Assembly: GCA_016871315.1 (NCBI GenBank)
Contig: VFZE01000038.1
Location: 1-56,195 of the forward strand
Reading direction: 5' to 3'
Source of the DNA: Acidimicrobiia bacterium
Lineage (GTDB): Bacteria; Acidobacteriota; Terriglobia; Bryobacterales; Bryobacteraceae
Length of the DNA: 56,195 nucleotides
The translations under genes were made by a program, and so were the position numbers. The notes under the pieces are model-generated. The model worked only from the letters and a program-made list of their open reading frames with translations, was not told where the DNA came from and did not search any database. Of the stretch, positions 24,753-32,442 are shown one piece after another (position 1 is the first letter of the stretch; each line of letters starts with the position of its first letter).

Positions 24753-25580
24753 GTGGTTCGTTTTTCCGCGGCTTGTTTCCTTTTCTGCTCGCTCGCCCGG
24801 GCCGCGCCCATCGACGACGCCTTCCGCTGCCTTTACAATTTCGATTTTCCCGCCGCCCACCGCGTTCTCGACAACTACATCGCCGCCAATCCCAAGGACC
24901 CGCTCGGCTACTCCACCCGCGCCGCCGCTTACCTGTTTCACGAGCTCGACCGCCTCAACATCCTCGCCGCCGAATTCTTCGCTGACGACAAGAAAATCAC
25001 AGCCAACAAGCGCCTTGAGCCTGATCCCGTCGTCCGCGAGAAATTCTTTTTCGCCATCGAGACCGCCCAGCAGCTCGCCAATGAACGCCTTCTCGGCCAT
25101 CCAGGCGACGCCAACGCTCTCTTCAGCCTCTGCCTTGCCGAAGGCATGATCACCGACTATATGGCCTTCGTCGAAAAGAAGCGCCTGCGCAGCCTCGGAC
25201 CCGCCCAGCGCTCCCACCGCCACGCGCTCGAGCTTCTCCGCCTGCATCCCGATTTCGCCGACGCCTACCTGACCACGGGTCTCAACGAATACCTGGTCGG
25301 CAGTCTCCCCTTCTTCATCCGCTGGTTCGTCCGCTTCGACGGCGTGGAAGGCAACAAGCTCACCGCTGTTTCCAAGCTCGAAAAAGTCGCCCGCGAAGGC
25401 CGCTACCTCGGCCCCTTCGCCCGTATTCTCCTCTCCCTGCTCCACCTCCGAGAAAAAAGGCCCCACATCACCATCCGCCTGCTCGAGGAACTTATCGCCG
25501 AATTCCCGCATAACCCCCTCCTTCGTTACGAACTCGATAAGATCCGCGCCAAATTCCCGCCTCCCGCTATCCGCCGCTAG
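24753..25580 (+). CDS. Exported TPR-like hypothetical protein
   Basis: 275 aa from the GTG at 24753, which starts a clear signal peptide (VVRFSAACFLFCSLARA, cleavage before APIDDAF). The mature part is helical with TPR-like pairs (FDFPAAHRVLDNYIAANPKDPLGYSTRAAAYLFHELD and later HALELLRLHPDFADAYLTTGLNEYLVG), and ends with another such pair (LLEELIAEFPHNPLLRYELDKI). No catalytic motif seen. A longer frame begins at 24663 inside glnE but would put the signal peptide in the middle of the protein. It begins 13 bp after the glnE stop. Likely periplasmic protein-interaction role; function unknown. Confidence 0.7.
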   Translation: MVRFSAACFLFCSLARAAPIDDAFRCLYNFDFPAAHRVLDNYIAANPKDPLGYSTRAAAYLFHELDRLNILAAEFFADDKKITANKRLEPDPVVREKFFFAIETAQQLANERLLGHPGDANALFSLCLAEGMITDYMAFVEKKRLRSLGPAQRSHRHALELLRLHPDFADAYLTTGLNEYLVGSLPFFIRWFVRFDGVEGNKLTAVSKLEKVAREGRYLGPFARILLSLLHLREKRPHITIRLLEELIAEFPHNPLLRYELDKIRAKFPPPAIRR

Positions 25581-25604
25581 CCGGTCCGTTATCATGTTCT
25601 AGTC

Positions 25605-26543
25605 ATGCTCTCCCGCCGCCTCTTCCTGCTCTCCCTCGCCGCCTCCGCGGCGCCAGGCAACAAACCCCTCCGCGGCATCTTCCCCATCATGCAGTCCCCG
25701 TTCACCGCCGACGACAAACTCGACCTCCCCATTCTCGCCAAGCAAGTCCACTTCCTCGAACGTTGCGGCGTCCACGGCATGGTCTGGCCCCAGCTCGCCA
25801 GCGAGTACTACAACCTCACCAAGGACGAGCGCCTCGCCGGCATGGAGACTATCCTCGCCGCAGGCAAATCCACGAGGCCCGCCCTCGTCATCGGCGTCCA
25901 GGCCGATGACTCCTCCGCCGCCGTCGAATACTCCAAACTCGCCACCAAACTCGGCGCCGACGCCCTCATCGCCCTCCCCCCGCGCGAGGAAAAAGACTGG
26001 AACAAGATCACCCTCTACTACAGGGAAATCGGCGCCGCCTCCCCGCTCCCCCTTTTCATCCAGGCCATCGGCAACGTCACCGTCCAAGGCATTATCGATC
26101 TCTCCAAAGCCATCCCCACGCTCCGCTACATCAAGGATGAAGCCGGCCCCGTCCTCTCCCGCCTCACCGAAATCCGCTCCAAGGCCCCCGCGCTTAACCC
26201 CTTCACCGGCGGCCACAGCAAGACCCTGCTTGATGAAATGATCCGCGGCTCCGCCGGCACCATGCCCGCCTCCGCCTGGGCCGACCTCCACGTCGCCGCC
26301 TGGGACGCTTTCCACTCCGGCGACCGCGCCCGCGCCGCCAACCTCTGCGCCAAGAGCCTCCTGCTCATCTCCACCGTCGACGCTTACGGCATGCCCGCCG
26401 TCAAATATTTCCTCCACCTGCGCGGTCTCTTCCCCACCTATCACCTCCGCCGCGACACCTCCCGCAACAACGCCCTCGACGACCACGCCAAACGCTATCT
26501 CGCCGAATTATTCGCCCTCCTCAAACCCCACCTCCGCGCCTGA
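25605..26543 (+). CDS. Exported dihydrodipicolinate-synthase-like (DapA superfamily) protein
   Basis: 312 aa with the (beta/alpha)8 pattern of N-acetylneuraminate lyase/DapA enzymes (GIFPIMQSPFTADDKLDLPIL). The Schiff-base lysine is present, Lys177 in RYIKDEAG. However the Thr-Thr of the GTTGE motif is replaced (WPQLASEYY) and the active-site Tyr position reads FIQAIGN, with Gln153 instead. So the proton-relay triad of true DapA is absent and it should not be called DapA. The N-terminus (MLSRRLFLLSLAASAAPG) looks like a Tat or Sec signal, unusual for this fold. Start 24 bp after the upstream gene. Its 3' end overlaps the RHH antitoxin gene by 23 bp. Confidence 0.8.
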   Translation: MLSRRLFLLSLAASAAPGNKPLRGIFPIMQSPFTADDKLDLPILAKQVHFLERCGVHGMVWPQLASEYYNLTKDERLAGMETILAAGKSTRPALVIGVQADDSSAAVEYSKLATKLGADALIALPPREEKDWNKITLYYREIGAASPLPLFIQAIGNVTVQGIIDLSKAIPTLRYIKDEAGPVLSRLTEIRSKAPALNPFTGGHSKTLLDEMIRGSAGTMPASAWADLHVAAWDAFHSGDRARAANLCAKSLLLISTVDAYGMPAVKYFLHLRGLFPTYHLRRDTSRNNALDDHAKRYLAELFALLKPHLRA

Positions 26544-26754
26544 ACCCTTTCTTCAACTTTTCTAGCAACTCCAATCCTCGTCTTGCCGACCCTTTGCTTG
26601 CCAGCGCACGGAAGCGCGTCTCGGCATCATGCTGAGCCAGCGCTACCGTCGCCAGCTCATCGATCAACTTATTCATACTGATCCCACGACTCTCCGCCAG
26701 CCGCCTCAGCCGCTCATGTTTCGATTCCGGCATCCTGATCGTCAAAGTGCTCAT
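26521..26754 (-). CDS. Ribbon-helix-helix antitoxin
   Basis: 77 aa. The N-terminus TLTIRMPESKHERLRRLAESRGISMNKLI (split here by meaning: a short beta strand TLTIRMP, then two helices) is the ribbon-helix-helix DNA-binding fold of CopG/Arc-type antitoxins; the basic C-terminal tail probably binds the toxin. Its start overlaps the PIN toxin stop by 4 bp, so it is the second gene of a coupled pair, with the toxin first. It probably represses the operon by binding the palindrome at 27187-27208. Confidence 0.82.
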   Translation of the reverse strand: MSTLTIRMPESKHERLRRLAESRGISMNKLIDELATVALAQHDAETRFRALASKGSARRGLELLEKLKKGFRRGGGV

Positions 26755-27176
26755 CGCAAACTCCTCAGCATCTCCCCGGGACTCACCACCCGGATGCCCG
26801 GAAACCGTAACTCCGCTTGCACAAAATCACGGCGGTTGTTCGTCACAATCATTCCGGCGCCTCCTGCCACCGCCAGCTCAATCAAGTGATTATCCGCTTC
26901 GTCGGACAGGTTAGGCGTCCAGGAATAGTAAACCTGCACCCATTCTCCGGCGCTAGCCATCGCCGCCACCAGTTCCCAACGCTCCTTCCTCGTCAAAGAG
27001 CATTTCCGGAACAATTCGTCCCGGCTGATCACGTCTTCATATTCTGATATCAGCGCCTGCCCGAACAAAGGGACCGCCTTGCCTTCAAGACAAGCTCGAA
27101 TCACCGCTCGATTCGTTCCGCTCCTCCGAAGCAGCGCCGCAACCAGCACGTTGGTATCAACCACAACGCGCTCCAT
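26751..27176 (-). CDS. PIN-domain toxin (putative toxin-antitoxin toxin, PIN family)
   Basis: 141 aa from the ATG at 27176 (MERVVVDTNVLVAALL). PIN-fold ribonuclease: the first catalytic Asp is in VVVDTN, the conserved Glu in LISEYEDVI, further acidic residues in DEADNHLIELAVAGGA, and the last part in VTNNRRDF. Such toxins cleave RNA and arrest growth. Alternative in-frame ATGs at 27179 and 27188 exist; the latter lies inside the palindrome, so I prefer the downstream ones, just behind GAGGGAG. The operon order toxin-antitoxin is less common than the reverse. Confidence 0.85.
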   Translation of the reverse strand: MERVVVDTNVLVAALLRRSGTNRAVIRACLEGKAVPLFGQALISEYEDVISRDELFRKCSLTRKERWELVAAMASAGEWVQVYYSWTPNLSDEADNHLIELAVAGGAGMIVTNNRRDFVQAELRFPGIRVVSPGEMLRSLR

Positions 27177-27186
27177 CATCTCCCTC

Positions 27187-27208
27187 ATGATAGCACATAT
27201 GCTATCAT
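27187..27208. promoter_or_regulatory. Palindromic operator of the PIN/RHH operon
   Basis: Perfect inverted repeat with 9-bp arms ATGATAGCA - CATA - TGCTATCAT. It lies directly at the 5' end of the toxin gene and even contains the first of its possible ATGs. RHH antitoxins bind such palindromes and autorepress; the assignment is by position and symmetry only. Confidence 0.65.
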
Positions 27209-27232
27209 CAAACCGCTCCTACTCTGTGTGGG

Positions 27233-27267
27233 GCGGGCCTTTAGCCCGCGCGAGGCTTCAGACTCGC
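27233..27267. repeat. REP-like pair of hairpins
   Basis: Two adjacent short stems: GCGGGC-CTTTA-GCCCGC (27233-27249) and GCGAG-GCTTCAGA-CTCGC (27250-27267). This GCGGGC-TTTA-GCCCGC form is typical of dispersed intergenic palindromes in GC-rich genomes. No second copy was noticed in this window, so the dispersed-repeat status is inference. Confidence 0.4.
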
Positions 27268-27291
27268 CACCACTTGCCCTACAATAAGAGC

Positions 27292-27417
27292 GTGCGCCTT
27301 TCCATTGAGCTTGACAGGGAAGAGGACGGCCATAAAAGCGGACTTCACAATCGGGCCACGTCGACACGCACTCTTGCGTCCACCAAGTTCATCAGCAGTT
27401 CAATCGCTGCGTTCTGA
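27292..27417 (+). pseudogene. Relic of a HicB-type antitoxin gene
   Basis: From GTG 27292 the frame reads VRLSIELDREEDG, the characteristic first strand and turn of HicB/UPF0150 antitoxins, where R-W-x-A-E should follow. Instead it continues HKSGLHNRATSTRT, which has no resemblance and is antisense to the Avd-like relic. Only about 13-14 codons (to about 27330) survive. No HicA toxin is nearby. A TACAAT -10-like box precedes it at 27279-27285. Non-functional. Confidence 0.45.
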
Positions 27418-27527
27418 GGACTCTGGCCGATCGTGAATCGATGGGAGCGTGGGAAATTCTCCCCCTTCGGGATGATCCAAAGCGTTAAGTCATAGGCTTT
27501 CTGGACAACAATGGCAGGTTCAATCAC
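27345..27527 (-). pseudogene. Truncated Avd-like four-helix-bundle gene
   Basis: From GTG 27527 it reads IEPAIVVQKAYDLTLWIIPK, then ENFPRSHRFTIGQ and IELLMNLVDAR. This matches the N-terminal half of the accessory variability determinant (Avd) of diversity-generating retroelements and its stand-alone relatives, which are about 115-130 aa. Here it stops after 60 codons: the third and fourth helices are lost at a junction (about 27340-27375) with the HicB relic. No reverse transcriptase, template or variable repeat was found in the window, so it is an orphan fragment. Confidence 0.5.
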
Positions 27528-27639
27528 AGTTCAATCACCGTAAAAATCTGTCCGCCACATCTCTAACCGATCCGCACACGTCGAGGTCCGCTCAGTGGAC
27601 GGTCTCGGCCCGGTAACCTCCTGCAAAGCGCTGGCGCTC

Positions 27640-27661
27640 ATTATATCCATCTGGATATAAT
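27640..27661 (+). promoter_or_regulatory. 22-bp palindrome containing the -10 box of the RelE/HigA-type operon
   Basis: Perfect inverted repeat ATTATATCCA-TC-TGGATATAAT. The right arm ends in TATAAT (27656-27661), so transcription should start about 7 nt later, at the ATGs of the toxin gene (27666/27669), giving a leaderless message. No ribosome-binding sequence precedes them. By symmetry a TATAAT also faces the other way. An antitoxin bound here would cover the promoter. Confidence 0.7.
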
Positions 27662-27665
27662 CTTC

Positions 27666-27995
27666 ATGATGAAGCCCATCCGTTTCCTCGGTGACTCGCT
27701 GAAGTGCCTGCGAGACTTCCCCGAGGTTGCGCGGCACGATGCGGGCTATCAACTGGACAAGGTGCAGCGCGGAGAGCAGCCTGTTGACTTCAAACCTATG
27801 CCCTCCGTCGGCAAGGGAGTCGAGGAGATTCGTTTGACGGATGAGAGCGGTGCTTACCGCGTGGTCTATTTTGCCCGGCGCGCCGAAGCCGTCTACGTGC
27901 TGCACGCTTTTCAAAAGAAGACGCAAGCGACTTCGAGGCGCGATATCGAAATCGCCAAAAAACGATTCGCACAACTGTCAAGAGGTGACATATGA
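27666..27995 (+). CDS. RelE/ParE-superfamily toxin (HigB/Gp49-like)
   Basis: 109 aa (107-108 if the second ATG at 27669 is used). It matches the phage-Gp49-like/HigB branch of RelE toxins, which cut mRNA on the ribosome: KPIRFLGDSLKCLRDFPEVARHDAGYQL, then MPSVGKGVEEIRLTD, GAYRVVYFARRAEAVYVLHAFQKKTQ and the closing helix DIEIAKKRF. The start lies 5-8 bp after the -10 box, so translation is probably leaderless. Its stop overlaps the antitoxin start in ATGA, a toxin-first order usual for HigBA. Confidence 0.85.
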   Translation: MMKPIRFLGDSLKCLRDFPEVARHDAGYQLDKVQRGEQPVDFKPMPSVGKGVEEIRLTDESGAYRVVYFARRAEAVYVLHAFQKKTQATSRRDIEIAKKRFAQLSRGDI

Positions 27996-28273
27996 GGAAA
28001 CTGGAAAGCTACGCCAGCGTTTGGGAGGCGATTGCGGACACGCCCGGCCAGGCGGCGAACCTCCGAGCCCGCGCCGAGCTGATGCGGCAGATTGCAGCCA
28101 TCGTCAATCGGAAAGGCTGGACGCAGGTGGAGGCAGCGGACCACTGCGGAGTGACGCAGCCACGCATGAACGATTTGCTCCGCGGCCGTGTTTCGCGCTT
28201 CTCCCTTGACGCGCTGGTGAATATCTCCACCGCCTTGGGCTACCGGGTGCGTGTGGATCTTGAAGCTGCCTAA
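27992..28273 (+). CDS. XRE-family antitoxin (HigA-like)
   Basis: 93 aa. A central helix-turn-helix is clear: QIAAIVNRKGWTQVEAADHCGVTQPRMNDLLRGRVSRFSLDALVNI, shown by WTQVEAADHCGVTQPRMNDL as the core. The end (LGYRVRVDLEAA) is the usual dimer strand. It neutralises the upstream toxin and very likely binds the 22-bp palindrome at 27640-27661. Start ATG overlaps the toxin stop by 4 bp. Its stop codon overlaps, on the opposite strand, the last codons of the decayed SUMF1-like relic. Confidence 0.88.
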   Translation: MRKLESYASVWEAIADTPGQAANLRARAELMRQIAAIVNRKGWTQVEAADHCGVTQPRMNDLLRGRVSRFSLDALVNISTALGYRVRVDLEAA

Positions 28274-29162
28274 ATGGAATCCCCGGCGCACCGAAAGCCG
28301 AAGTCTAGGAGCCGGATCGCCGGACGGTAGAAGACACGGCTCGGGACGCGAACAAACTGAGGAACGTTGCTCCAGGAGCCCCCGCGCAACACTTTGGCCT
28401 CACCTTCGCCTGGTCCTTCCGGGTTCTTCTCACATCCCATCCCGTAGTGACTATACCAATCCAGTTAACCCCTGTCACATATAGATCTCGTCGATCCCAA
28501 AAACGTACGGCTCGGCCCGTTTGATGGTAAAGCCGGTCACGCGGATCGTCCGGTTCTGATCTTCCAGCGCCCGGAGGTAAGTGTCCGGATCGACAATAGG
28601 GCTGGCCGGCCTCAGCCCCGTCCGCACCGGTCCAAGCGCGTCCGAAACCAGGTGCCGTATGCTCGCCGCATCCGTGAACGTGCCCCTCACGTACCGGCTG
28701 AGTTCCCCCTTGAACTCCGCTAGCTTCGCCTCGTTCCGCTGAACCTCCTGCCGCAGTTGTTGGAACTGATCCGGTGGCAGGTTCTTTCCTTTGATCAGCC
28801 GGTAATCTTCCCTTTGCTCCGCCGGCCAAGAGTATTTCTCGTCCACCAGAAAAGCGATTACTTCCTTGCTTAGTGACCTTCCAGGCATGCTCGCACTCCA
28901 GCCACGTGATGCTCTTGTGATCCGGATTCATTGGCCCCTCGGGCACCCACCCATACCGGTGCGCCACAATCACCACCACCACTTCGGCCTCCCCGACCAG
29001 CTTGAGGCAGGCTTCCACGCTCCCGGCATCTCCTCTGGCCGGAAAAAACTCCATCATCCGCGGCGAGAACCCGCACGCGATTGCCGCATTCCTGGCCTGC
29101 TCGCGGTACTCCTGCAGGTCTTCCGATGTCGAGGAGATAAAGACTACCGGATCGAACGGCAT
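28270..29162 (-). pseudogene. Decayed DUF4062 - (lost middle) - SUMF1/FGE-like gene
   Basis: From ATG 29162 a DUF4062 domain reads FISSTSEDLQEYREQARNAA, VVVVIVAHRYGWVP and SITWLECEHAW, then the frame breaks near 28880. The domain resumes in another frame (EVIAFLVDEKYSWPAEQRED ... FTDAASIRHLVSDAL) to RAEPYVFGIDEIYM and a stop at 28475. Eleven bases further a third frame (28464 to 28270) reads LDWYSHYGMGCEKNPEGPG, VLRGGSWSNVPQF and GFRCAGDSI, the C-terminal end of a SUMF1/formylglycine-generating-enzyme fold. DUF4062 often precedes a NACHT-type NTPase, and FGIDEIY is where such a region would begin. I infer one large gene that lost its middle and suffered a frameshift. DUF4062/NACHT proteins are suspected defence or signalling ATPases. 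Surely inactive as it stands. Confidence 0.65.
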
Positions 29163-29353
29163 GGCACGGTTGATTGTAATATGGCATTAAGCTATTGCGA
29201 GGCTCGAACCGTCCAAACGATAGCCGCGGGGTCAGCAACTACCACGCGCTCAACCACTTCCCGACGCCCTGCAACTCGAAAACCCGTGTCCATCGGTGTC
29301 CCGAATCGCAATCCCGCAAACCCGCAACCACCACCACCCGAGCCGGGTGCTTC
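29163..29353. other. Non-coding gap upstream of the attenuator
   Basis: About 190 bp between the decayed gene's start and the promoter of the DAHP synthase leader. Open frames on both strands (for example 29192-29392 on -) are Gly/Arg-rich with no recognisable family. It presumably held the promoter of the decayed gene; nothing else seen. Confidence 0.4.
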
Positions 29354-29382
29354 TTGCAATACCACCAACCATGACTTAATAT
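29354..29382 (+). promoter_or_regulatory. Promoter of the Phe/Tyr leader and DAHP synthase operon
   Basis: TTGCAA (29354-29359), 17-nt spacer, TAATAT (29377-29382). A start about 7 nt after the -10 box would fall at 29388-29391, that is, on the ATG of the leader peptide, so the leader may be translated from a leaderless 5' end. Confidence 0.6.
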
Positions 29383-29390
29383 GAAGCTTC

Positions 29391-29438
29391 ATGCTCTGCG
29401 CCGCCCCATTTTCGTTTCGATACCGGTTCTATTTCTAG
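29391..29438 (+). CDS. Phe/Tyr-rich leader peptide (attenuator)
   Basis: A 15-codon open frame encodes MLCAAPFSFRYRFYF and ends in TAG at 29436-29438. Six of the last nine residues are Phe (7, 9, 13, 15) or Tyr (11, 14). It lies between a promoter and an intrinsic terminator, directly upstream of the DAHP synthase gene, whose pathway makes Phe and Tyr. The codons overlap the first RNA segment of the attenuator, as in classical enterobacterial phe and trp leaders. Ribosome stalling at Phe/Tyr codons would sense charged tRNA(Phe) and tRNA(Tyr). It is far too short for usual gene finders. Translation start may be leaderless; a weak GAAG lies 4 nt before the ATG. Confidence 0.75.
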   Translation: MLCAAPFSFRYRFYF

Positions 29439-29505
29439 AACCGGGTGGCGTTGGCATCGCAGTTTTCGTTTCTGACATTCCAACCCACTCGGCAACGAGT
29501 GGGTT
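29423..29505 (+). promoter_or_regulatory. Attenuator RNA with alternative stems 1:2, 2:3 and 3:4
   Basis: Segment 1 (29423-29431, CCGGTTCTA) pairs perfectly with the first part of segment 2 (29436-29444, TAGAACCGG). Segment 2 (29441-29454, CCGGGTGGCGTTGG) can instead pair with segment 3 (29480-29492, CCAACCCACTCGG): 8 bp with one G-U, a small internal loop, then 4 bp. Segment 3 (29482-29491) pairs perfectly with segment 4 (29496-29505) to form the terminator. The states are mutually exclusive. A ribosome stalled at codons 11-15 covers segment 1 and frees 2 for 3 (read-through); a ribosome at the TAG covers segment 2 and lets 3:4 form (stop). Confidence 0.75.
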
Positions 29506-29514
29506 TTGCTTTTT
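29482..29514 (+). terminator. Intrinsic terminator of the DAHP synthase leader
   Basis: Perfect 10-bp stem AACCCACTCG/CGAGTGGGTT closed by a GCAA tetraloop (29482-29505), followed at once by TTGCTTTTT. It ends 12 bp before the DAHP synthase ATG and so must be regulated for the gene to be expressed. Confidence 0.9.
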
Positions 29515-29526
29515 CTGGGGGTTCCG

Positions 29527-30567
29527 ATGATCATTTCAATGAAATTGCATTCCACGCAGGAAGAGATCGACGCCGTCTGCGACCGCATCCGCCACTTCGG
29601 CTACAAGATCCACACCATCGAAGGTGTCGAGCGCGTCGTCATCGCCGCCATCGGTGTCGGCGATGTCACCGCCTGCATTGAATCGCTGGAAGCGATGCCG
29701 CAGGTCGAAAAAGCCGTCCGCATCTCCGCGCCCTATAAGTTCGTCTCCAAGGAGTACAAGGAAGGCCGCACACGCGTGCGCGTCAACGGCTTGGAAATCG
29801 GCGGTGATCAGTTCATCGTCATGGCCGGTCCCTGCTCGGTCGAATCCGAGCAGCAGATCATGGAGTCGGCCGAAGCCGTCGCTGCCGCCGGCGGCCACAT
29901 CCTCCGCGGTGGCGCATTCAAGCCCCGAACCTCCCCTTACGAATTCCAGGGCCTCGAGCAGGAAGGCTTGAAGCTTCTCCGCAAGGCCAAGGAGCGCACC
30001 GGCCTCGCCATCATCACCGAAGTCATGAGCGACCGCGACGTCCCCCTCGTCGCCGAATACGCCGACATCCTCCAAATCGGCGCCCGCAACATGCAGAACT
30101 TCTCCCTCCTCAAACAGCTCGGCAAGGCCGGACGCCCCATCGTCCTCAAGCGCGGCCTCAGCTCCACCATCCGTGAACTGCTCATGTCCGCTGAATACAT
30201 CGTCGCCCACGGCAACAAGGACGTCATCCTGTGCGAACGCGGCATCCGCACCTTTGAAACCGCAACGCGCAACACGTGCGACATCGTTTCCATCCCGCTG
30301 CTCCAGGAGATGACCCACCTGCCCATCATCCTCGACCCCAGCCACGCCACCGGCAAGCGCAGCCTCGTCCCTGCTCTGTCCCGCGCCGGCGTCGCCATCG
30401 GAGCCGACGGCCTCCTCATGGAAGTCCACCCCTGCCCCGAAAAAGCCTACTCCGACGGTGCGCAATCTCTCCACATCCCGGAGTTCAACCAAATGATGCA
30501 GAGCCTCAAGCCCTACATCGAAATCTGGAAGCAATCCCGGATGACAGAGGGCGCCGTCGCGGTGTAG
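29527..30567 (+). CDS. aroF: 3-deoxy-7-phosphoheptulonate (DAHP) synthase, type I-beta with N-terminal regulatory domain
   Basis: 346 aa. It condenses phosphoenolpyruvate and erythrose 4-phosphate, the first step of aromatic amino acid synthesis. Residues 1-70 form a ferredoxin-like regulatory domain as in Thermotoga DAHP synthase ([17 protein letters not shown], ... [10 protein letters not shown]), which in that enzyme mediates feedback inhibition by Phe and Tyr. The barrel holds GPCSVES (101-107), [12 protein letters not shown] (127-138), [15 protein letters not shown] and [14 protein letters not shown] at 29517-29521 precedes the ATG at 29527; ATG 29539 is an alternative. The upstream attenuator controls it, and three genes follow within 3-15 bp. 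The symbol aroF is used loosely for the enzyme class. Confidence 0.95.
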
Positions 30568-30582
30568 GCTCGGGAGATAGGC

Positions 30583-31500
30583 ATGCGCATCCGGCCCTGG
30601 CAGTTCGTCGCGATTCTCCTCGCCGTATGCCTGCTTTCCATCGGCGCGCTCGAGTACCGCCGCCGCCAGCGCGACACTTCCACCGAGGCTCTGCTCCGGC
30701 GGTTCCCTTCCGACTCCGTCAAGCTCGTTGTCGATGTCCAGGCCCTGCGCCAGGCCGGCCTGCTCGAGATGCTCGCCGGCAGCCGCGCCGCCGAGGAGAC
30801 CGAATACAAGCGATTCGTCGCGACCACCGGCTTCGACTACCGCGAGCATCTCGACGTGATCCTCGCCGCCTTCCGCAATAGCGAACGGATCTTCCTCCTC
30901 CGCGGCCGTTTCCAGTGGCCCCTCATCCGCGACTATGCCGTCTCCGCCGGCGGCACTTGCCGCAATGGCTATTGCCAGACCCGCCTCGACAACGGCGAAC
31001 TGTTCGTTTCCGTGTTTCAGATCATGCCCGGCGTCCTCTCGCTCGCCATCAGCAAGGATCCAAGCGCCGCCTACATCCCCACCGGCTCCAACCCGCCGGA
31101 CCCGGACAACCTCCATCCCGACGCGCCTGTCTGGCTTTCCGTGCCGGAATCCGTGATCAAGGAGCCCTCCAACCTGCCCGACGGCACCCGCGCCTTTGTA
31201 TCCGCCATCCAGGGAGCACGCCAGGCAACGCTCGCCCTCGGCGCCACCGGCAACGGTTTTGAGGCCACCCTCGGCGTCGTCTGCCGCAGCCCTCAGGACG
31301 CGCAGCGCGCCGCCACCGAACTCGCCCAGCTCACCGAGAAACTCCGCCGCTTCATTGAACGCGAGAATCAGAAACCCAATCCCCGCGACCTCAGCGGAGT
31401 TCTCACCTCTGGCGCCTTCCGCTCCGAACAAAGCCGCGTCCATGGCCGATGGCCCATCGAAAGGGGCTTTCTCGAAGCCATCTCCGAAGGCAGCTTTTAG
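30583..31500 (+). CDS. Membrane-anchored hypothetical protein
   Basis: 305 aa, family not recognised. One N-terminal membrane helix (PWQFVAILLAVCLLSIGAL) anchors a periplasmic domain with alternating strands and helices (DSVKLVVDVQALRQAGLLEML, GFDYREHLDVILAAF, ...LSLAISKDP, ATLGVVCRSPQDAQRAATEL). Two cysteines (GTCRNGYCQ) could form a disulfide. GGGAG about 8 nt before the ATG supports the start. It lies 15 bp after the DAHP synthase gene and 3 bp before the PfkB gene, so it should share the attenuated transcript. Function unknown. Confidence 0.7.
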   Translation: MRIRPWQFVAILLAVCLLSIGALEYRRRQRDTSTEALLRRFPSDSVKLVVDVQALRQAGLLEMLAGSRAAEETEYKRFVATTGFDYREHLDVILAAFRNSERIFLLRGRFQWPLIRDYAVSAGGTCRNGYCQTRLDNGELFVSVFQIMPGVLSLAISKDPSAAYIPTGSNPPDPDNLHPDAPVWLSVPESVIKEPSNLPDGTRAFVSAIQGARQATLALGATGNGFEATLGVVCRSPQDAQRAATELAQLTEKLRRFIERENQKPNPRDLSGVLTSGAFRSEQSRVHGRWPIERGFLEAISEGSF

Positions 31501-31503
31501 TTC

Positions 31504-32442
31504 GTGCCCGCCGCCGTGTTCTGCGCCGGCAATCTTGTTGCCGATATCCTCGTCCGCCCCGTCAGCACCGTCCGCTGGGACACAACCACCTGGGTCGATT
31601 CCATCCAGCAGAGCATCGGCGGCAACGGAGCCAACACCAGCTTCGCGCTGGCCAGGCTCGGCGCTCATGTTGTTCTCACCGGCGCTGTAGGAGCCGACCC
31701 GTTCGGCCATTTCGTGCTCGATCATCTGCGCCAGGCTGGCGTCGATACCAGCCTCGTCCAAACGGTGGATGCTTCCACCGCCGTCACCGTCGGCCTCGTT
31801 CACGACAACGGCGCGCGCGCTTTCCTGCACCGCCCTGGAGCCAGCGCCGAGGCATTCTCCCAGCCGGTGGACTTCACAGCCGCCACTGGCTGCTCGCACT
31901 TTCACCTGGCCAATGTTTTCGGGTTGCCTCGCATGCGCCCGCAGGCCGCGGACACTTTGGCGCAAGCGCGGCGCGCCGGCCTGACGACGTCGCTCGATAC
32001 CGGCTGGGACGCGCGAGGCGAATGGATGAGCATCGTCGAGCCTTGCCTGCCGCATCTCGACCTGCTCATGGTCAACCTCGACGAAGCCCGCCACCTCACC
32101 GGGCTTGGCACGGCCGAAGAAGCCGCCGCTAAACTTCGCGATCTCGGAGCCGGACGCGTTGTCGTCAAGCTCGGCGGCGACGGCTGCGCCGTCTTTGCTC
32201 CGGAGTTTTCAGGTCCGGTCCCGGCCTTCGACGTTCCCGTGGTCGACACCACCGGAGCCGGCGATTGCTTCGCCGGCGGCTTCCTCACCGCCTGGCTCGC
32301 CGGAGCATCGCTTGAGGAAGCGGCCGTCTTCGCCAACGCCGCCGGCGCTCGCAGCGTGCAATCGCTCGGCGCCGTCACTGGCCTGCTACCGCGCCAGGAA
32401 ATGCTCGATTGGATGAAACAGACGCCTCAGCGTTACTGGTAG
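31504..32442 (+). CDS. PfkB-family carbohydrate/nucleoside kinase
   Basis: 312 aa of the ribokinase/PfkB fold. It has the N-terminal sugar-binding GGNGANTSFALARLGAHV, the lid and central region, and the catalytic signature DTTGAGDCFAGG (Asp248 start), with Asp254-type base in GAGD. No signal peptide. Such kinases phosphorylate ribose, fructose, 2-keto-3-deoxygluconate, adenosine or similar; the residues do not let me choose. GTG start at 31504, 3 bp after the previous stop. It lies in the run behind the DAHP synthase gene; erythrose-phosphate supply is a possible link but unproven. Confidence 0.9.
   Translation: MPAAVFCAGNLVADILVRPVSTVRWDTTTWVDSIQQSIGGNGANTSFALARLGAHVVLTGAVGADPFGHFVLDHLRQAGVDTSLVQTVDASTAVTVGLVHDNGARAFLHRPGASAEAFSQPVDFTAATGCSHFHLANVFGLPRMRPQAADTLAQARRAGLTTSLDTGWDARGEWMSIVEPCLPHLDLLMVNLDEARHLTGLGTAEEAAAKLRDLGAGRVVVKLGGDGCAVFAPEFSGPVPAFDVPVVDTTGAGDCFAGGFLTAWLAGASLEEAAVFANAAGARSVQSLGAVTGLLPRQEMLDWMKQTPQRYW

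Follow-up and report, generated by a model that had tools for sequence, protein, structure and literature searches.

The locus described here raises the question of whether half an avd gene, found on a contig together with toxin-antitoxin genes, is the relic of a diversity-generating retroelement (DGR) or of a stand-alone Avd-like gene, both of which the initial annotation had allowed for. The window, meaning the whole stretch of DNA that was analysed, comprises positions 1 to 56,195 of contig VFZE01000038.1 (GCA_016871315.1, genome size 6.25 Mb). It holds the wreck of one DGR, consisting of an avd stub and remnants of a target gene with toxin-antitoxin genes between and around the pieces, and nothing at the locus now works as a DGR.

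The accessory protein Avd is present as its N-terminal half only (27363–27527, minus strand, 53 matched codons, delimited with Avd profiles and homologues) and is a pseudogene. The 60-codon minus-strand frame at 27348–27527 matched the NCBIfam Avd model NF033474 with residues 6–53 on profile positions 2–49 of 104 (E 9.5e-9) and the Pfam bAvd model PF22296 (E 1.8e-5), both scores lying below the curated cut-offs, which half a protein would be expected to do; the frame runs on beyond the avd homology, which begins at 27363, to a stop at 27345–27347. The stub is 55–67% identical to four full Avd proteins from MAG contigs (three Bryobacterales, one Acidobacteria), three of which were scored by the Avd model at 72.6, 79.6 and 88.5 bits against a cut-off of 80, and the Avd protein of locus L004 matched it by tblastn at E 7e-20. 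These profiles and homologues bear out the approximately 55 Avd codons first read on the minus strand. The S23-type model PF05635 reached E 0.1 on the same frame, far weaker than the Avd models, which outscored PF05635 and TIGR02436 in the stub as well as in those full-length relatives that were scored, so that the resemblance is to Avd and not to unrelated S23-type proteins alone. Against solved structures the stub gave two weak chains, one at E 0.012 whose name suggests a designed protein and one at E 1.4, and neither carries the name Avd. The intact copy that the initial annotation proposed to look for was not found: across all 6.25 Mb the stub was the one place matched as Avd, both in a single-protein search and in a profile search (E 3.3e-7). 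The profile search was a loose one that also gave matches in 8 of 14 control genomes, all of them below the cut-off. At the avd start codon (27519–27538) the sequence TTCAATCAC stands twice in a row, a short tandem duplication noticed by eye.

Taken by itself, such a stub might be a truncated stand-alone gene of the Avd or S23-like four-helix kind, with the DUF4062 domain and the variable-repeat-like end described below as unrelated neighbours. The weak PF05635 match would suit this, as would the near-complete avd genes that lacked a reverse transcriptase (RT) in the stretch compared at L089, L094, L117 and L073 (the last with a frame change). The four nearest Avd relatives (L002–L005), however, all have an RT beside avd. 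Among 76 avd loci including the window, the RT spanned at least 290 of 331 profile positions in 48, was partial in 8 and absent in 20; five of the 48 have the RT in more than one frame, some of the partial or RT-less loci are cut by contig ends, and L116 was counted once though it bears a second, RT-less cassette. At L004 the target gene, avd, RT and template repeat (TR) follow in that order on one strand, and at L084 (genome G091) the target is open in one frame from DUF4062 to the variable repeat (VR), followed by avd, a full-profile RT and the TR.

Judged by homology, the window also holds a DGR target gene, which was overlooked in the initial annotation and has the same orientation as the avd stub. 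The L004 target protein matched the window twice on the minus strand, with residues 111–151 at 28600–28478, a linker (68%, E 8.5e-13), and with residues 833–893 at 28461–28279, the C-terminal end of the FGE/C-type-lectin domain (52%, E 4.7e-13). About 680 codons (about residues 152–832 of the L004 target) have been lost between linker and C-terminal end, at an internal deletion junction that the two flanking matches place at 28462–28477. Upstream in the target a DUF4062 domain (PF13271, E 4.2e-19) runs on the minus strand from 29162 to about 28884 and is 71–75% identical to the starts of the DGR targets at L003, L068 and L084; it has a relative in 12 of the 79 loci tested, L003 and L082 being the same place, and no DUF4062 match was obtained in the L004 target. 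The frame changes just downstream of this domain, and the VR end lies in a 64-codon frame. From the two L004 matches and the upstream DUF4062 domain it follows that the window holds both ends of a DGR target gene. The remnant counts as a C-type-lectin (FGE) variable domain through its L004 match, FGE-sulfatase being found in the whole targets of L004, L068 and L070. By Pfam, the whole targets of L068 and L070, where the RT is damaged at both, have DUF4062, NACHT and FGE domains, and a NACHT part of the window target is predicted from these relatives.

The C-terminal end includes a VR (28279–28388, minus strand), recognised by comparison with the TRs of relatives as adenine-diversified. The window's own TR has been lost, and the bias was therefore measured against TRs of other genera. 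Against the L082 TR, 20 of 29 adenines were changed versus 13 of 81 other bases (p=3.2e-7), and against the L085 TR 20 of 29 versus 17 of 81 (p=6e-6). In all, 18 TR regions were tried, of which 13 aligned over at least 107 positions and five were short, with significance tested for L082 and L085 only; adenines were changed more often than other bases in 13/13 of the long alignments. Seven control comparisons with avd and linker DNA gave no adenine bias (p 0.17–0.67). A TR/VR pair was found in 16 of the 17 relatives having both regions (L095 being the one without), with 14–23 of 27–32 template adenines changed and 0–2 of 77–90 other bases, except in the noisy L092 (12/81). Since the VR shows this bias and the avd and linker DNA do not, the cassette has probably been active at some time. 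The earlier statement that no repeats remain is accordingly wrong for the variable repeat and right for the template repeat.

The target pieces thus lie on the avd strand in DGR order, their linker and VR end resembling by homology those of a DGR target, and together with the adenine bias and the RT beside avd in L002–L005 they make a stand-alone gene with chance neighbours highly improbable. Of the two origins offered by the initial annotation, the past DGR is upheld, by a target with a VR in the window itself and by the RT found beside avd in the nearest relatives and in most of the loci surveyed (48/76), and the stand-alone Avd gene is dropped. Sharing strand and order with the DGRs of relatives (L084 included), the target remnants support one dead DGR, and the pieces are very probably what is left of a single minus-strand element once arranged target-avd-RT-TR. 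It could be imagined that a fixed VR was kept after RT loss and that the window remnant still acts as a receptor, as the target still has a long open frame at RT-less loci of relatives (910 aa at L066, 1069 aa at L072, 562 aa at L073, 1008 aa in the second cassette of L116 and 954 aa at L127). The window target, however, has its frame change, its loss of ~680 codons and a VR end confined to a short frame, and a receptor still at work here is scarcely credible.

The claim that no RT remains was upheld over the whole genome, which is 98.34% complete. No RVT_1 match was found in the 6.25 Mb by a profile search that also gave matches in 4 of 14 control genomes, and the L004 RT, a clear RVT_1 (67.9 bits), had no convincing match there, the best being at E 0.2 with a stop inside. 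A second copy of the VR, as a template repeat would be, was not found in the genome either, the next best match covering 18 bases. As the assembly stands at this completeness in 166 contigs, an unlinked RT on a missing contig is possible.

Facing the avd stub is a hicB-like remnant on the plus strand, with a GTG start at 27292 and 13 codons kept (27292–27331). Together with a little upstream DNA it was delimited at 27273–27331 by alignment to the 5' ends of three relatives' genes, and these DNA alignments, over 45–60 bases, all stop at 27331. Pfam and NCBIfam profiles gave no match to the 21-residue stub, because it is too short. An 18-codon query from the window matched 21 of 61 family genomes including its own, the others weakly (E 0.16–9.4), and 8 of 9 further loci retrieved (L165–L167 and L169–L173, L168 being without it) carry a gene whose product begins V(H/N)L(S/T/A)IELDRE(E/D)DGR, then IAEALELPGVM or a near variant. 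DUF7387 was the top Pfam match in seven of these eight full genes (E 2.6e-5 to 1.1e-3, below cut-off) and HicB_lk matched four (E 0.007–0.09, below cut-off), with L173 lacking any match. In five of the eight (L165, L166, L169, L171 and L172) a short frame follows directly, with a stretch that we take, by reading its motif, to be HicA-like; no HicA-like gene was seen beside the window stub. With the HicB-like/DUF7387 genes of relatives the window shares the first 13 codons and some upstream DNA, and it retains the stub only. Of the 13–14 HicB codons first reported, the gene start is real by the evidence of the eight relatives, and the HicB name is less sure, the Pfam matches being below cut-off.

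The arrangement had been described as head-to-head; the stubs are instead convergent, their truncated 3' ends facing each other across 31 bases that could be assigned to neither gene. A junction does exist, but the edges of hicB-like and avd homology place it at 27332–27362, slightly to the left of the 27340–27375 first given. Its proposed role in removing the rest of both genes is consistent with a single deletion through hicB and avd, and no intermediate was seen.

Around the junction, a PIN_3 gene (Pfam) lies at 26751–27188, and the PIN region with its neighbour (26585–27033) recurs in part, as broken fragments, elsewhere in the genome (G000:C85, L081:3504-3729). A 44-base repeat at 27226–27269, just upstream of the hicB-like stub, has at least 8 further genome copies at 86–95% identity. 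An RNA family search of 25500–29600 gave a single weak match (25832–25895, E 0.051), under its gathering score. The one congener compared (G031) matches the window at 29354–32415 and 25661–26440, on two contigs that do not join up, and in the stretches compared there no target, avd or RT matched at E<=1e-3. Its own DGR piece sits on another contig, without an RT in the stretch compared, and its avd is 48% identical to that of L004, versus 66% for the window copy. Accordingly, no orthologous site, intact or empty, was found, and the intermediate steps are unseen.

Between the target end and avd lies a HigBA-type toxin-antitoxin block (27642–28277, plus strand), comprising a HigB-type Gp49 toxin (27666–27995; PF05973, E 1.4e-25) and an HTH_37 antitoxin (27992–28273; PF13744, E 9.5e-24). 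The block is 82.7% identical to a copy on another congener contig (G031:C389), with sharp edges at 27642 and 28277, and since its right edge covers the target stop codon, the natural end of the target has been replaced. Within the dead-DGR explanation, the block could itself have killed the element by cutting avd and RT from the target transcript, with the deletion coming later. The sharp homology edges, the covered stop codon and the diverged copy in the congener would all agree with this, whereas 27561–27680 and 28231–28330 share no word of more than 7 bases, giving no sign of a target-site duplication, and the order of insertion and deletion is unreadable from one genome only; we regard a killing by the block as possible but somewhat doubtful.

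By analogy with live elements, the RT of the window DGR, with Avd, would have reverse-transcribed the TR, putting random bases at adenine positions, and the mutagenised cDNA would have replaced the VR, giving a varied ligand-binding face to a receptor-like STAND NTPase; passages in PMC10907252 and PMC7159879 suggest that such a target may have sensed invaders. The death of the element would have come with the loss of RT, of TR, of the 3' half of avd and of the 3' part of the convergent hicB-like gene, for which a single deletion is the simplest account. The target would have decayed through the frame change and the deletion of about 680 codons, and the HigBA-type block would have come to lie between VR and avd. 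That a single deletion took both gene ends, and the sequence in which these events fell, are our inference.

Avd matches at E<=1e-6 were present in 51 of 237 family genomes (40 of the first 200), and in a phylum sample 13 of 396 genomes had an Avd match, the window's genome included. Breaks in the middle of avd are seen at several RT-less loci, for example L066 (in the congener), L067, L069, L072, L126, L127 and L174; the clustering of these breaks at residues 43–80 is partly a detection effect, because short stubs escape the search. Seven loci without an RT in the stretch compared (L066, L072, L073, L116, L117, L127 and L174) have long open targets, and most of these end in variable-repeat-like sequence, which makes them candidate frozen receptors. 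Separately, avd was seen to be divergent from the RT, on opposite strands, in L118, L120, L122, L175, L179 and L186, close relatives being co-oriented; two avd genes stand in tandem ahead of one RT at L189:243-1987; and at L074:5922-6455 an internal deletion joins avd and the C-terminal third of the RT in one frame, with a TR-like stretch kept.

Toxin-antitoxin genes at the breaks of RT-less loci were counted as ORFs of at least 65 codons within 2 kb downstream that reached the Pfam cut-off of a toxin or antitoxin family, for which we ourselves assigned PIN, RES, Gp49, ParE/ParD, HTH_37 or HTH_3 beside a toxin, UPF0150, Phd, Zeta and AbiEii; ParE/ParD in L115 and AbiEii were scored by E-value and not by cut-off. 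In the first set they were found in 5 of 14 loci with RT absent or a stub versus 1 of 20 with RT (p=0.06, from the best 25 of 26 families). Among the matches listed, the positives were L069, L070, L072, the second cassette of L116 and L126 and, on the RT side, L115 (ParE/ParD, placed by reading); the downstream sequence was limited to 1010 bases at L070 and 1414 bases at L116, and L069 passes through HTH_37 alone, its HicB_lk match being below cut-off. In the second set both RT-less loci (L174 with Zeta, L176 with RES) were positive versus 1 of 13 with RT (AbiEii; p=0.029), these 13 comprising nine from new genomes and four from the first sample, at least five with avd and RT on opposite strands. 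Pooled, the counts were 7/16 versus 2/33 (p=0.003, the first set from the best 25 of 26 families). A within-locus control 2–4 kb beyond the break gave at least 2 of 13 (p=0.13 versus 7/16, from the best 25 of 34 families), the positives being PIN_3 and DUF433 with DUF5615, placed by reading in L117 and L069.

The window, as the index case, was not counted, and sub-threshold HTH matches were counted in neither set. Three RT loci used have the RT in two frames (L082, L183 and L185). L119 and L124 had RT and room and were unused, other RT loci being left out for short flanks or a damaged RT; also unused were contig-end cassettes (L108, L110, L123, L128, L129, L188 and others), L068 and L074 (RT truncated), L132 (weak Avd, no target), L075 (a 100-base stretch) and L131 and L133 (overlapping or repeating other loci). 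With sets picked by hand, loci of one genome not independent and genomes rich in toxin-antitoxin genes (8 HicB_lk matches in the window's genome), the tendency of RT-less loci to carry such genes at the break is no more than suggestive. Among the literature matches listed, seen in part, none described toxin-antitoxin genes at DGR breaks, which is not proof of absence. It would be a bolder and rather unlikely proposal that DGRs of this family repeatedly lose RT and TR but retain an open target, freezing a chosen receptor, that toxin-antitoxin modules settle by preference at the break and hold the frozen locus in place, and that the window is the last stage, with the target decayed too.

The window's genome, in which no RT was found, preserves traces of a diversifying receptor system that was probably active in the past, and the adenine scar of the VR allows such a relic to be recognised after RT and template have disappeared. 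How DGRs die, and whether cells retain frozen receptors, are questions that can be put to the RT-less cassettes of this family. In Thiohalocapsa PB-PSB1, passages of Doré et al. 2024 (PMC10907252) describe degenerate DGR loci with key machinery missing or pseudogenised, and the window DGR is therefore a wreck of an already known kind. The two cases are alike in the loss of machinery, and the PB-PSB1 targets are described in these passages as STAND NTPases with C-terminal FGE domains; the term DUF4062 is absent from the main text of that paper. They differ in that each PB-PSB1 class, according to the same passages, also has a complete locus, whereas no RT was found in the window's genome. Nearer at hand, L084, L003/L082 and L004 have homologous avd, linker and VR end, the targets of L084 and L003/L082 also starting with DUF4062. 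Unlike the window, which has neither, these loci keep RT and TR (the RT of L003/L082 in two frames), and L084 is the closest whole form read.
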